This document shows, piece after piece, positions 14,227-21,483 of a stretch of DNA of 64,000 nt (position 1 is its first letter; each line of letters begins with the position of its first letter). The notes below the pieces were generated by a model. It did no database searches. It saw nothing but the letters and a program-made list of their open reading frames with translations, and was not told the origin of the DNA. Both the position numbers and the translations under genes were made by a program. The DNA is from Auricularia sp. M13 (taxonomy: Eukaryota > Basidiomycota > Agaricomycetes > Auriculariales > Auriculariaceae): assembly GCA_037042915.1 (NCBI GenBank), contig CM073199.1, positions 3,162,001 to 3,226,000 on the forward strand, given 5' to 3'.

Positions 14227-16664
14227 CCACAATGTATACGCAGCAGGAGCCTACAGCACCCGCACATCGGCCTCCGACACCCAGCGATCAGTGTCATTCC
14301 AACGAAGAAGCCAAAAAATTCCAGGGCACAGGGCACTGCAGCAGTTCATTTCCCAATTGACAGGACGCCTTGGCGGGAGTGATCCCAGGACGTAATGGGA
14401 TCACTTGCCTTCTTGACAATGACAATCGACATTCTTCCGATGCAGGGTGGGGTGGGACGCTCCGACGCCTCTCCCGCTGGCCGATCAATTCTTTCACAGC
14501 TGACTGGAACGGCGGAGCTGCGGGCGTCGCCTATGTACGCGATACGTGATAGGATCCACACACAAATGCGTGTGGAATGACCGTTGGTAACGAAAGCTTA
14601 CGGTGATGCGCCCTTGCATTTCTAATCTGAATCACTGTCAGCACAAACAATTACTCATCGGGGAGGCCTTCTCCGAGTCGGTTCTCCACCGCGACAAAAA
14701 CAGAAGAGCACTCGAGCTGGAGTCGAGCGTGGAGGCTCGGGAGGATCTCATCCAGCTTGCTACGGACAATATCAATGGTGTCATTGTTGAGGAGTGCCCA
14801 CACTCCCGCTCCCGCTGCGCAAACAGCAACCCATTCAAGCATGCATAGTCGCAGCGTCCACGTCTGAACTTGATCCCAGAGCTGCAAATAGCAACGCGGA
14901 GTACGCGGACGCGGGGAGGACGGCATCAGCAGCCATTTGCACACGTGACTGGAGCTTCTCAGTGTCAGACTGTGTGGGCAGACGGTGCCGCCCAGGCTGA
15001 GGTATTCACATGCACTCTACAGTAACACTGGAAGAAGCTCACCAAACATTTGGCGCGGGAGTCTCCTCATTCACATGCACGAGCTTTCGAGTCCCGATTC
15101 CCACGGCCTTCCAATTCGATGCATGCTTATATAAAGCATATATCCGTGACTTCACGGGTACCGATGTAAGCACAGTAAACGAAAGTGAATCCCTGCTGCC
15201 AGTGATCTCATTACCTACTAGTATCGTCTCTGCACCAGGTCCACTTGCCTCGGAAGCCTCGCCGCCGCCATCACCAAGTGGCTCGCGGAGCCGTTTACTG
15301 GCCATGGCAGCTTCCTCCCCCATCGAAGTCTCGAGTCGCTTTCCTCTTTATTAGGCAGGTATTCGCAGCGGACAGCAGCGGAAGGCTGCAACAGGCAGTG
15401 ATGCTGCACGCGCCTCCGTCCTCATCGCAATAGCGCATGCAGTTTGCCGTTTGGTCTGATATCGATGTAACGGCAACGACAACCTCTCCCGCAACGTCTG
15501 TCTATACCAGTAGCAATGATGCCACACGCGCCTCTGGAGTCTGCATGCGGCCCTGCTTATATATAAACATATCCTGCAGCAATAAGTAGCCGAAACAGGC
15601 AGTGATGCTACATCGTGACACGGGCTCGGAGCCGGCTGCCGTCCACCTTGACTTCCGTCGCGCCCGTTGAGGCAGGTGTTCGCAATAGATTCAAACTGCA
15701 ACGACAAATGACCAGTAACGGCTCCTCGAGCTTCGAATTCTCGGCGGTCCCCAGCTTTACCGCGGACACTCTCCGCGGTGGGCTTCTCCGAGTCTCAGTC
15801 TCAGGCGAACATGATGATCGGGCGCCCCCTCCAACACCACTCCATGTCAGATTGACGCTGCGATGCCGCATTCGACTCTCGACCCCCGAGGCCTGGGTCG
15901 TCTCACCTCATCCCAAGGCCAGATTCGTCTCACCTCAGCCAGCCCGGACATCCCCATTTCCCGGGACCTCTGCCAGTCGAGCGTGCCGAGCTCAGCTTCT
16001 GGCGGCGTATGTCCGGCGGGGCCACGCGTCGTAAGCATGGTATTTCCTTTCCCGAATAGCCTGGGTCCCACTGGTGTCAGCTCGGTGCCGCGGACACTTC
16101 CCCCGCTCGATGAAACACCCGACGCCTCGTGGTATTTCGAACTCGGGGCAAGTTCTATCCGCTCAGAGTCATCAACTGCGTCACGGCGGTTTATCGTGCG
16201 AATGAGCCACCTCTGTGTGCGTGTGAATCCCACGGAGACGTATTACGGTATTTGTATGTTGACAGGAAAATAGCCGATCGAATATCAGACGAGATCTGCT
16301 CCGATACCCCCAGACCAGGTCGTGTCTGTGCATCCGCTCCATATGAGCGGTTCAGGATAACGTCCTGCATGATATACCGCCCAAATGCCTGGCGCGGCGG
16401 CGCAGTCGGGATCGGCCGGGATCGGCCAGATGCGGCAGGTCAGGCCTGCTCGGGCCTGCTCAGGCCAGATACGCTCTCCCAGGTTGAGCAGGCCTGATAT
16501 TGCCGCTCAGGGGGGATTCGGATGACCATCGAATACTGTCAGATATATAAAAATGTTCAAAATGTTAACTCACTTTCTTCTCTCGCTTGCACCTGTATTA
16601 CCTCGCAGTTTACTTGTGCGTCGTATTCATGTTCACACTGCCCTACTACCCGAACGATCTAAGC
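14227..16664. other. Non-coding, repeat-bearing stretch
   Basis: No supported gene. A minus-strand frame at 14651-14944 reads somewhat protein-like (ALLNNDTIDIV) but has no recognised domain. A GGCC/GATC-rich repeat occupies about 16407-16480. Confidence 0.5.
16407..16480 (+). repeat. GGCC/GATC-rich repeat, copy 1
   Basis: Sequence of the pattern GGCCGGGATCGGCCAGATG, then GGTCAGGCC and CTCAGGCCAGATACGCTCTC, recurs in diverged form at 20903-20995. The two copies lie in the same orientation on either side of the 3.6-kb transposon-like unit. Confidence 0.65.
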
Positions 16665-16690
16665 GTGTACTATACTATCAAATTAACTAG
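16665..16690 (+). repeat. 26-bp direct repeat, left copy
   Basis: Begins GTGTACTATACTATC and ends AATTAACTAG. It differs from the right copy at a single base (position 16, A here and T there). Confidence 0.92.
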
Positions 16691-16892
16691 CAGGTGTATG
16701 GTGATGGGCAATGCCAGCCAAGCGATTCTGCCCGGCGATAGCCGATTTTGCACGCCGCCGCTGAGCATCGCTCATCTCAGCCGCAGTGTTTTTTATTGCG
16801 CCATGTAATCTATTTTGTGTTAATGCTAAGATATGTAAAACTACTGATACGGTGTTATAAACCTAGTGCTACAGTATATGTCCGGGAAATAT

Positions 16893-19774
16893 TCATACAC
16901 TCTCCTCAAAGAACTCCATAGGCTCCTCTATGATTCCCTGCACACCTGAGCCCCTCTCCGGCACTCTCTTGTATTCAAAGCCTGATTTTAAGTCTCCTGA
17001 TGCGCTGGGATCGAACGCATGCTCCAGAATTGCGTACAGAAGTGCCCGCTTACCCGCAACCTTTGTCGGCTTTGGTGTCGTCTTTTTGAGCTTGGCCATG
17101 ACGCTAGGATGACCGCGGTAACGATGCCAGAAAATATTGGAGTCCAGGATCTTGCCAGGGATGCTCTTGCGCTCTTCGAAGCTGAACATAGCCCCCAGCG
17201 AGAGGAAGCGGGTCGGAGCAGCCAGGTCAAGATCCCGCTCCCGCTTCATACGTTTCTCCTCCTTCCGAGCCTCTGCAGCTTGACCTTCTGCTGCCTTTCT
17301 CCGCTCAAACTCCATCTGACGCTTTTTTTCGAGCTTTGGTAGACCAAGGGCATCGCGCCGGCGGTGATCTTGCCGGATGTGTGTGCGACGGGTTGGAGCC
17401 AGACCCTTCAGAAACGGCGAGGTGCCGTTGCGCCGGAACATCGTCTTTGCGTTGAAGAATGGTGTACACATTGATGGTGCTCGTCGCTGCTCGACGCACC
17501 AGTAGCCTACGAGACTCTCGCATGTGTCGTTCGTTGCCGGAATGATCGTTGCGGCTCGTTGTGCGGGCGTCGCGTTCGCAATCGAGCCTCCCGGCAGGAA
17601 TTCCCGGGAGAATTGAATCCAGCCGTCTCTGGACCCGGCAAAGAACGCCCGGACGGGGACATCGATATGAGGGAGGAGGGATTGCCCCCGGAGGGTGTCG
17701 AGCACGGAAAAAAGCTCGGGATCGTCAAGCGGTTCTCCCAATACCGACGCTGGTATAGAGCCATCGCACTGCGGGCCCGCAGTCACTATCTCTGGACACT
17801 GAGAGATCAGGTCACACTGTGAGATGACGGCCATATGCAGTGGCCCGAGCTCCGTCATGTTGACAAGGCCAGTAGCGCGGACACGAGACATATACGGCCG
17901 TCCGATGGTTGTGCCATAGATAGCAAGTGCAGCAAGCTCGGACAGAGTTGGCCCATCGTGTAGAGCGCTCCAAAGGTTCTGCTCGAGGTGGTTGAAGGTG
18001 CGGGAGGTTTTCTTGAGCCGCTGCTGCGTCAGAAAATCGAGAGAAGCTGGGCGGTGATGCAGCATGAAGCGCGCCATTTCGTAGTTGGACTGGAAGCGGC
18101 TAGACTGGGTGTTTGGTATCTGAGGGCAGGCACCGTACCGCTCGCACAAAAAGTCGCGATAGAGCTGTCCGTATCCCTTCTTCTCGTCGGGATGGTTGAA
18201 CAGCATGCCAAAAAGCTCAGCAGCCTTTACACCACCTGCCTGGGAGACCTCTGCAGCTCTAGCCTGGGCGTCTGATGTCCCAGAAGCGGCGGCGGCGGCG
18301 TTGTCGCGATTGTAGAGCTTCATGGGGCCCGTAAGTCCAGCTGCTACCCAGGAAGCCATCATCCGCTTGTTTCCATAGACAACGGCATTCAGGTCTTTGT
18401 GCATGCAGCAGCCAGACCGAATGAAGAATGTCACGAACGCCTGCTCGCTTGGGCTTAGCTCGTCAAAGGCCGCTTTGCCCAACCGAATTCGGAGGGATTC
18501 GAGCATCTCCCGCTCATGTTCCCGGTGCTTCCCTGCTGTGAGACTGAGCCAGGCTTCCATTCCTCCAGCCGAAGCTATCATCTTGTTCTGCTCACTGCAG
18601 AGAAGCGCCTGAAACTCGGGTGGACGCAATGCTTGCATCGCTCTGATTCCGCGAGCAGCAAACCCGACCTTCATCCGATGATCCTGCAAGCGATCTGTGA
18701 GAGCGACCTGATCCGCAGCGTGATCAGACGCCGTTGCCTGGATGTGCTCCCAGAGCGCAAAGTAGGCCCAAGCTTCGGTATCGTCCATATCACTGGCAAG
18801 TCGGTCATCGTTGTAGAGCTCCTCAAGGCCCTTCAATTCTTCGAGCCACCCGTGGAACGTGGTCTCTGTAGCATGGTCGACAGGGCGGGTGACGCCTAGA
18901 CAGAGGCTCTCGCCGGCTCCATTCGTTGTAACGGTGGCATGTCGGCCCATGACGTTCAGATTGCGGTATGTCGTACCATCTCCGCTGAGACAAATGCCCG
19001 TAACTGCAGATAAATATTAGACAAGCAAGGGTAACCACATTTCTGCTCACCACTAGCATTGTTCAGCTTCTCAGCCACCTGTAACTTCGAAGCAAGCCCG
19101 GCCTCCCCGACACAGCGTGCCACTGTGCGGCGCATGTCGGCTCCGGGACCGGGTACGACCGTCAAGCCTGCACACTCCAGGGCAGCTCGTATGACAAAAT
19201 CCACGTGGCCAGTTGCCACACGCCCAGTGGAGACCAAGTCGGCAATGAGAGCTCGAACAGAATCAGTGTATACACCTGATTTCTTGAGCTGAAATGTTGT
19301 TGCCAGTTTTAGTGCCTTATTCACCTCCCGAGTGCAAAATCGGTCGCGCTCGGTGAGATGGTACGTGAGACGCTGCTCAGAAGCCTTCAGATCAGCACGA
19401 AGTCTGTCGACAATGATGGTCGTCGAGTATAGATGGGATTCCAGGTCGGAAATGCGCTCCGAGGCGGCGTCAAGGGCAGCAGTGTGTTCTGCATCCTTTG
19501 TTGCCAGTGCAGAAACAGCAGACTCCCGTAGGCGGTGAACAGTCTGGTATTGCGCACCACGCTGCTGTTTCATAGTATTTGTGCGGTCGGAGAGGGCGCT
19601 ACTGCGTGCGCGCTCATCATCGAGGTCGGTACGCAGCTTTTTCACTGTGCGCGGTGAGACGCGCGGTGCGCCGTTCTCGTCATCCGATCGAGCAACCTGA
19701 GCATGTTTGCGCTTCTTGTCCATGCCCTCACAGGCCCTTTTTGCGGCCTGCTGACGAGGCGTGAGCTCTGGCAT
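16893..19774 (-). CDS. Transposase-like protein of a multicopy basidiomycete family
   Basis: Two exons (19774-19051, 19003-16893) separated by a 47-nt intron give an intact 944-aa protein. Residues 1-240 are basic and coiled-coil-like (Lys/Arg-rich, heptad Leu/Ala). The core carries SGDGTTYRNLN (around 248-258), SGCCMHKDLN (around 439-448) and NHLEQNLW (around 579-586). Spaced acidic residues near 250, 445 and 582 fit an RNase-H-fold DDE/DDD transposase, but that reading is inference. The C-terminal 200 residues include a charged KRxxEFERRKAAE helix. The family with SGCCMHKDLN is, as I recall it, repeated many times in mushroom genomes as unannotated proteins. The gene is the only one between the inverted repeats. 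Being uninterrupted over 944 codons, it may be recently active. Confidence 0.82.
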
Positions 19775-20220
19775 CCCGGAGACGGTCCGATGGAAGCTGA
19801 GAGCGCGGTTGCAGAAGGAGAGTCGCGGCTTAGATAAGCCGGCTCGGGCTCAAATAGAGGTAAAGCACAAATTATACGAAGCTCCATCAGTGTTCAATGG
19901 AATACTATGATAAATTCAGAAAATCCTTGGTTATACTGTAGTACTCGTTGTACAAAACAGAAACATGCGGCGGCGAATTCCCTCTCGGCTGGATACAAAC
20001 CGGTCTCACCGGTGGCACTGGCAGGACACTAGCAATAAAACTACTAAACGGATCGAGATTCTGTTTAGTAAATATCCTTATAACTATTTTCGGATGCTTT
20101 TTATCTAGATATAGTGTGGATAGCTAGAAAAAAAATGTCTTCTAAACAATCTGACAGGGTTGTCCATACGGAGGAAGCCGATCACGGATAACCGTTTGGC
20201 GCACGTTGCCCATCACCAAG

Positions 20221-20246
20221 GTGTACTATACTATCTAATTAACTAG
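20221..20246 (+). repeat. 26-bp direct repeat, right copy
   Basis: Matches the left copy at 25 of 26 bases and abuts the right inverted repeat with a 2-bp spacer, compared with an 8-bp spacer on the left. Confidence 0.92.
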
Positions 20247-20320
20247 AAGTCCGTTCTGAAGTCCGTGTACACATCACAAGCTCAGCTAGGAAGTACACTA
20301 CTACATCTTTTTACAAAAGG

Positions 20321-20395
20321 CCTGTGCTGGGAATCGAACTCGCGACATAAGACTTATGCCGCGCGCACACTAACAGCTAGACTAAAGTGTCCAAT
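20321..20395 (-). other. tRNA-like relic with A-box and B-box
   Basis: Read on the minus strand, an A-box-like TAGTCTAGCTGTTAG is followed by a hairpin (GGCAT and ATGTC around a 7-base loop) and a good B-box AGTTCGATTCC. The T-stem and acceptor stem do not pair well and position 33 is not U, so it is not a convincing functional tRNA. A degraded tRNA or the head of a tRNA-derived SINE fits best. Confidence 0.35.
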
Positions 20396-20902
20396 GAATC
20401 TGACTGGAACTTGTGCAATATCATCATGATACAAATGCCGAACAAATAACACCTCACACACTCACCGGCTACACTGAGGTTCAGAACTGTGCTCTCTGGG
20501 CCTAGCGTCAACAGCGCCGCACGCCATAAAGAGCTGTGCGTGTATTAAGTCGCGCTGTCCAAGAGTTGGCCTCAGCCTGTAGCATTGGTTTATGACGTCA
20601 TGCTCCACTCCGGGAATTGCGCTTCGCGTTGGTGGTCAGCACCGCGCCTTCAACAAACGTTACAGGGCAGCATATTCAAGCCGGCATTGAGCTCAAAGAT
20701 CCCAGCTGCACCTGGCCGCAGCATGCAAAATAAACACTGTGTGCTGCCGGTACGCTGTAATGCACGGCATTTGACACCAAAACACCTAACCTTAGTGCCA
20801 CAACAGTCTAAGGTTGTTCGAGCTTGCTCCATGGGCGCAGGCCGAAGCAGGTCAGATCATTGAAACATGCCTGACGCTGAGGCTTCGACAGAACGAGTCT
20901 GC

Positions 20903-20995
20903 TCCGGCCGGATCCGGCAGATGCGCCAGATCAGGCCGGATCAAGTAGTGTATGGGCGCCGGGTCAGGCCTGATCAGGCCAAATACACTCCCATA
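20903..20995 (+). repeat. GGCC/GATC-rich repeat, copy 2
   Basis: A diverged direct copy of 16407-16480: both contain CAGATGCG followed by TCAGGCC, then GATCAGGCC or CTCAGGCC and a conserved AAATACACTC / AGATACGCTC end. An extra segment of about 25 bp lies in the middle of this copy. Confidence 0.65.
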
Positions 20996-21483
20996 AGGCC
21001 GGACCACATCTGAGACCTTCAAAATGGCTGAACTGTCTTGATACTTCATTGGCTATTTTCCTGTCAGTACTTCTCCGAGTCGAGCTCATCCCGGAATGGA
21101 AGATTGAAAAATAGAGCAGGCTGAGAATGTATGCATCCCACAGGTTGCATCTCGAGGCACGATCCATCGCGCACGCACACCCGTCCACCGCGCCGGGCAC
21201 TCTCCACGGAGGAGACGGCGACCGCCGCTGGAGCGCTTCCGCATATTCAATGAACGGCGCCATCGGCGCGGCGCAGATCCCCTGCAGCCGTCGCCCGCGG
21301 CGTTTACCCTATTGCCAGCGTCGCGTTTTTTTGTGGATCCGTCAGCATGCCAGGGGCAGTGTCGCTTCGTTCATTCAATTGGCGAGCGGTGTCCGGAGTC
21401 TGCTGGATGCAAGCCCGTCATTATCGAATACTTATGACAGTTGGGCCAGCAGAAATTGGGCTATAGCAAAGGTACGCACAGTA

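Follow-up and report, generated by a model that had tools for sequence, protein, structure and literature searches.

A probable cut-and-paste transposon of an unassigned family between pre-existing tandem 29-bp units of an older repeat in Auricularia sp. M13

Background

Transposons of the hAT superfamily usually produce target-site duplications (TSDs) of 8 bp, with 5, 6 and 7 bp given for hAT5, hAT6 and hAT7 in the relevant part of Kojima 2025 (PMC12730594), which reports the 7-bp form for hAT7 of rust fungi. The same part of that source describes Kyakuja, recorded from five orders of Agaricomycotina, with 7-bp TSDs and CA..TG ends without terminal inverted repeats (TIRs). Because 7 bp is reported there for both groups, a TSD of this length alone is not new. 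Dada-group transposons insert into multicopy targets, small RNA genes, according to the excerpts of PMC3706591 and PMC8869645, the latter excerpt using the term '7-bp target site duplication' once. According to the portion of PMC4763223 concerned, several transposase superfamilies, exemplified by Hermes and Kat1, share a conserved CxxH motif.

The element described here resembles hAT7, as characterized in that excerpt, in its 7-bp TSD, its inverted ends, its large transposase and a similar order of D, D, CxxH and E; among the hAT TSD lengths listed there, its own fits hAT7 only. In contrast to hAT, its protein shows a different CxxH spacing and about 200 residues after the last candidate Glu. 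The likeness to Kyakuja, within the published description covered, lies in TSD length, whereas the ends of the element are TG..CA with TIRs. The multicopy target recalls Dada as portrayed in the two excerpts and comes close to one idea of an earlier sequence-only reading of this DNA; several unrelated target sites are occupied, however, and neither ARAGORN nor Rfam detected a small-RNA-gene target around the copy in the window.

Organization of the element and its flanking repeats

The window, meaning the whole 64,000-nt stretch that was analysed, corresponds to C7:3162001-3226000 in a 52.1-Mb genome of 14 contigs. A short intron, F-box-like genes seen by eye and numerous KDZ transposases point to a probable basidiomycete. 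It contains a 3,520-bp element (Table 1) that we read, with a probability of roughly 0.94, as a cut-and-paste transposon with a 7-bp TSD which landed in an older repeat between tandem 29-bp units already present there. The sequence-only reading had described a transposon with an open transposase-like gene between inverted ends, flanked by 26-bp direct repeats, and these descriptive elements stand. The inverted ends around the gene are exact over 13 bp, and the direct repeats outside them extend to 29 nt each, with 27 of 29 bases identical. The core pattern of the direct repeats (at most 3 mismatches) occurs at two places only in the 64-kb window, namely the two units, and in 0 of 100 shuffled sequences. 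For TGGTGATGGGCAA with 2 mismatches allowed, one further match was found in the window, and three such matches were reached in 20 of 100 shuffles; since this is not rare by chance, what gives the inverted ends weight is where they lie and their presence in the other copies.

Table 1. Features of the element and its surroundings, in window coordinates
Feature	Position	Strand	Basis
Older host repeat, ends TGACAGGAAAATAGCC	16260..21066	.	Same ends in the C11 and C8 copies
First of the two pre-existing tandem host units, 29 bp	16665..16693	+	Head-to-tail pair in the empty sites on C11 and C8
TSD, left copy, AGGTGTA	16692..16698	.	Empty-site comparison
Transposon, 3,520 bp, gene on the minus strand	16699..20218	-	Ends common to the C3 copy; empty-site comparison
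TIR TGGTGATGGGCAA	16699..16711	+	Exact 13 bp; shared with other copies
Exon 2, catalytic-type core and charged C-terminal tail (by eye)	16893..19003	-	Alignment of 10 relatives
Candidate E737 codon	17519-17517	-	Exon 2
Candidate D335 codon	18725-18723	-	Exon 2
Candidate D250 codon	18980-18978	-	Exon 2
Predicted intron, 47 nt, GTGAGC...CTGCAG	19004..19050	-	Inferred; candidate introns in relatives
Exon 1, N-terminal part	19051..19774	-	Similar upstream frames in relatives
TIR, other end	20206..20218	-	Exact 13 bp; shared with other copies
TSD, right copy, AGGTGTA	20219..20225	.	Empty-site comparison
Second of the two pre-existing tandem host units, 29 bp	20221..20249	+	Repeat comparison and empty sites

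Empty sites and origin of the direct repeats

The left junction, used as a query against the whole genome, returned two further places that are identical to it over 34 bases, as far as the element's first base, and divergent beyond. At both of them (C11:2494958 and C8:3609580), the 29-bp units adjoin head to tail within a longer repeat, uninterrupted by the element; on C1, this repeat likewise carries tandem units, in a rearranged form, and lacks the element. The sequence-only reading had suggested looking for empty sites with one copy of the repeat; element-free sites exist on C11 and C8, holding two tandem units rather than one. When the two flanks of the window were fused, minus the element and one 7-bp copy, and aligned to the genome, 1,280 bases aligned across the junction on C11 at 97.1% identity with two gap openings, and the junction was likewise spanned on C8 and C1, at 82.7% and 89.9% identity; the empty sites compared are paralogous, not allelic. 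The junction reads GC-AGGTGTA-CTATAC on C11 and GC-AGGTGTA-(element)-AGGTGTA-CTATAC in the window, a net gain of 3,527 bp composed of the 3,520-bp element and a 7-bp target duplication. The unit-to-unit spacing, 3,556 in the window versus 29 on C11, agrees with this sum (3,556 - 29 = 3,527 = 3,520 + 7). The tandem pair without the element, together with the junction comparison, indicates that the long flanking repeats are host sequence and that the duplication made on insertion is an ordinary one of 7 bp, which is easily missed because AGGTGTA overlaps the start of the second 29-bp unit.

In the proposed sequence of events, a DDE-type transposase would most likely excise the element, which would then be joined to staggered target cuts 7 bp apart, giving the 7-bp TSDs. 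The insertion point would have been the boundary of the two tandem 29-bp units within the older dispersed repeat, and the insertion would have pushed the units apart, which gives them their present appearance of 26-bp direct repeats beyond the inverted ends.

Creation of the direct repeats by the insertion itself, whether as an unusually long TSD or through a recombination-type mechanism, would agree with their position close to the element on both sides and with their likeness at 27 of 29 bases. Yet the tandem pair is already present in element-free copies of the host repeat, the two differences between the units fall at the same positions with the same letters in the window and on C11, and the C3 copy of the element lacks the repeat; we consider this origin highly improbable. 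The sequence-only reading had rightly doubted that the flanking repeat is a TSD, the pair being present where the element is not, and its recombination-based mechanism is not needed for a footprint that is an ordinary 7-bp duplication. One of its three options, insertion into a repeat, is borne out inasmuch as the element sits in an older dispersed repeat, but no evidence marks the 26-bp repeat as a specific target. A preference for the 29-bp tandem repeat, in the way that Dada targets small RNA genes, would suit an insertion inside that repeat in a genome with several host-repeat copies. Against it, only one of the eight insertions with an exact TSD has this repeat as its flank, the other seven TSDs differ, the three other host-repeat copies found are all empty, and no tRNA gene (ARAGORN) or Rfam match was found around the insertion, so that specific targeting, too, carries very little probability. 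What the sequence-only reading had named as refuting evidence was observed: a second copy sits in a different flank and bears a short duplication of 7 bp, and further copies of an unrelated repeat contain the 26-29-bp sequence as two tandem units. Under the preferred reading, cut-and-paste insertion into an older repeat, the case shows that an exotic integration mechanism can be simulated when an element lands in a tandem repeat already in place; paralogous empty sites settle the matter here.

The older host repeat

Once the insertion and one 7-bp copy are removed, the host repeat measures 1,280 bp in the window, and its copies extend end to end over 1,294 bp on C11 and 1,740 bp on C8; the left flank in the window has copies that are 99% (C11), 97% (C1) and 86% (C8) identical. 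No coding gene of its own was seen in the host repeat, and its flanks, read by eye, suggest 2-bp duplications (GT, TG and TC). It looks like an older non-autonomous transposon, which makes the finding one transposon nested in another. Dispersed in the genome, about 1.3-1.7 kb long and with TGACAGGAAAATAGCC at its ends, the repeat occupies window positions 16260-21066 minus the element and is also present at L002, L003 and L059. A tRNA-like stretch inside it, at about 20317-20395 on the minus strand, was noted by eye and was not recognised by ARAGORN or Rfam.

Further copies and related loci

The two long pieces of the C3 copy of the element (C3:1918746-1929119) are 98.0% and 97.7% identical to the copy in the window. 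The C3 copy shares its ends, is bordered on either side by ATTACTG, a perfect 7-bp duplication, and lacks the 26-bp repeat; in the comparison of genomic copies that had been proposed, the inverted ends recur in this copy and the 26-bp repeat does not. Other insertions break this copy, one of them carrying what by eye is a gypsy-type pol frame. Immediately beyond the C3 copy starts a 177-nt inverted repeat, 98% complementary (L008, 5121-5297 and 5501-5677), possibly another small element. A short copy at C7:1781365 is 1,348 bp long with the TSD CTCAGAG, and a short relative on C4 (L056, C4:1614635-1615968) has both ends and unequal flanks. This relative carries one of its ends in duplicate, both occurrences running into TTTACAGG, and its opposite end has a different flank; the configuration could be a tandem end duplication or a rearranged insertion. 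For single ends at C11:1310775 and C1:6440667, no TSD partner was found.

With exon 2 as the query, the window was recovered along with two pieces of the broken copy, nine more long-frame loci at 30-35% identity and two short fragments of 60 and 41 residues; a second query taken from the family returned the same ten loci and the broken copy. A search for ends and TSDs over the ten related loci, made without knowledge of the end sequence, yielded an exact 7-bp TSD and ends in agreement at 11-12 of 12 bases for six of them (the window and relatives on C10, C3, C11, C9 and C7), where the elements are 3,504-3,796 bp long. Mismatched-flank controls, in which left and right flanks of different loci were paired, gave ends with an exact TSD in 0 of 90 cases. 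An exact TSD is absent at four of the ten: L030 has 18 of 18 end bases matching and a TSD of 6/7, L024 has ends with no adjacent TSD, and L027 and L032 have no convincing ends. Ends in the family start with TGGTG, TGGGG, TGGCC/TGACC or TGAGT. Exact 7-bp TSDs were recorded at eight insertions in all (the window, the C3 copy, five relatives and one short copy), the seven besides AGGTGTA being ATTACTG, CAAGGTC, CAGACAG, CGGTTCT, CTAATTG, CAAGTAG and CTCAGAG. Of the features of a TIR cut-and-paste transposon, inverted repeats around a transposase-type gene, a TSD of constant length and an empty site were found; the inverted ends, the tandem pair at element-free sites, the 7-bp duplications in two copies and the shared architecture of relatives are direct observations.

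Gene structure and conserved residues

The coding frame (19774-16893, minus strand) consists of two adjacent ORFs of 272 and 685 aa, which give 944 aa on removal of a predicted GT-AG intron (19050-19004); the open transposase-like gene of 944 aa in the sequence-only reading holds given this 47-nt removal. Candidate GT-AG introns of 44-54 nt lie at the same place before the core motif in L024, L025, L026, L031 and L032, and no candidate passed the filter in L028 and L029; the frames of L027 and L030 read through without an intron and were left out of this test. Exon 1 is coiled-coil-like by eye and has a conserved segment before the core, for which DNA binding would be a guess. A Pfam match of exon 1 to Rootletin (E=0.03, 14.8 bits versus a cut-off of 36) was taken as a coiled-coil chance match.

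The ten core sequences align over about 700 residues, with D250, D335, E582, D591, E597, E709, D734 and E737 as invariant acidic residues and with an invariant CxxH motif formed by C440 and H443. Together, D250, D335, CxxH at 440-443 and E737 suggest a DDE-type transposase. Of the triad first proposed near 250, 445 and 582, D250 and E582 are invariant in 10 of 10 sequences, whereas position 445 is D in five, E in four and A in one; this variation makes it unlikely to be catalytic, and D335 is the better second Asp. The most likely triad appears to be D250, D335 and E737, favoured because the order D, D, CxxH-LN, TNDxxE resembles hAT, with E582 as an alternative Glu. Single-sequence structure prediction gave a mean pLDDT of 37.3. 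The ratio dN/dS is near 0.08 (0.071/0.933) in one pair of relatives and near 0.09 (0.244/2.65, with dS saturated) in another, which fits selection for a working protein. DDE chemistry, the identity of the catalytic residues, the intron and any present activity are inferences.

Family assignment

Pfam gave no good match to the ten cores (five families in one member each, E 0.036 to 0.36), and hAT domains such as PF05699 and the KDZ transposase domain PF18758 were not among the matches of the ten members. PDB sequence searches returned chance-level matches only (best E 0.22 and 0.15), and among 23 pattern matches in viral and 20 in prokaryote collections, which may omit records of this or a very close genome, no relative was confirmed. 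A full-text literature search, with Repbase outside its scope, found no paper plainly describing the transposase family. By coordinates, none of the 21 places in the genome with PF05699 (28 of 28 candidates scored) and no PF18758 match (150 of 163 candidates scored) fall at the related loci. In hhalign, two four-member halves of the family matched each other with E=3e-136, while a hAT fragment and three KDZ fragments of the same genome gave probabilities of 0.5% and 0.1%, both weak tests because the templates are thin, the hAT one being single and short.

That the transposase is a strongly diverged hAT, of a 7-bp-TSD form like hAT7, rather than a separate superfamily, is a possibility to which we give somewhat less than even odds. 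The motif order is alike (D, a second Asp of the [STM]D type, CxxH then LN, P[AS]TNDxxE), one hAT locus of the same genome shows DNAS, CFAH and ATSxxxER motifs, rust-fungal hAT7 families with 7-bp TSDs are on record in the part of PMC12730594 covered, and CxxH, as the excerpt of PMC4763223 indicates with Hermes and Kat1, is conserved across several superfamilies. On the other side stand the lack of any hAT family among the Pfam matches of the ten members, the hhalign result with its single short template, and a D335-to-C440 distance of 105 residues versus 28 in the same-genome hAT fragment. Rather doubtful, and offered tentatively, is the reading of the ten loci as a fungal DDE transposon superfamily that is undescribed and without homology to any named one; its marks might be TSDs of 7 bp, short inverted ends, most of them of the TGGGG/TGGTG type, and a protein some 940 aa long with D, D, CxxH and a Glu of the TNDxxE type distributed across about 490 residues.

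The 'new family' of the sequence-only reading may still hold, the transposase matching no named family tested. The striking part of the observation is explained and the mechanism is ordinary, an insertion by a transposon of an unassigned, perhaps undescribed, family; the unusual part of the element is only its enzyme. What remains of modest interest is this conserved transposase family, whose core frames are long and open at ten loci within a single genome and which shows signs of purifying selection in the two pairs tested. Since Pfam does not recognise the family, automatic annotation would probably leave its members as hypothetical proteins.

KDZ elements are abundant in this genome, the KDZ transposase model having at least 149 matches, many of them in pieces or with stops.
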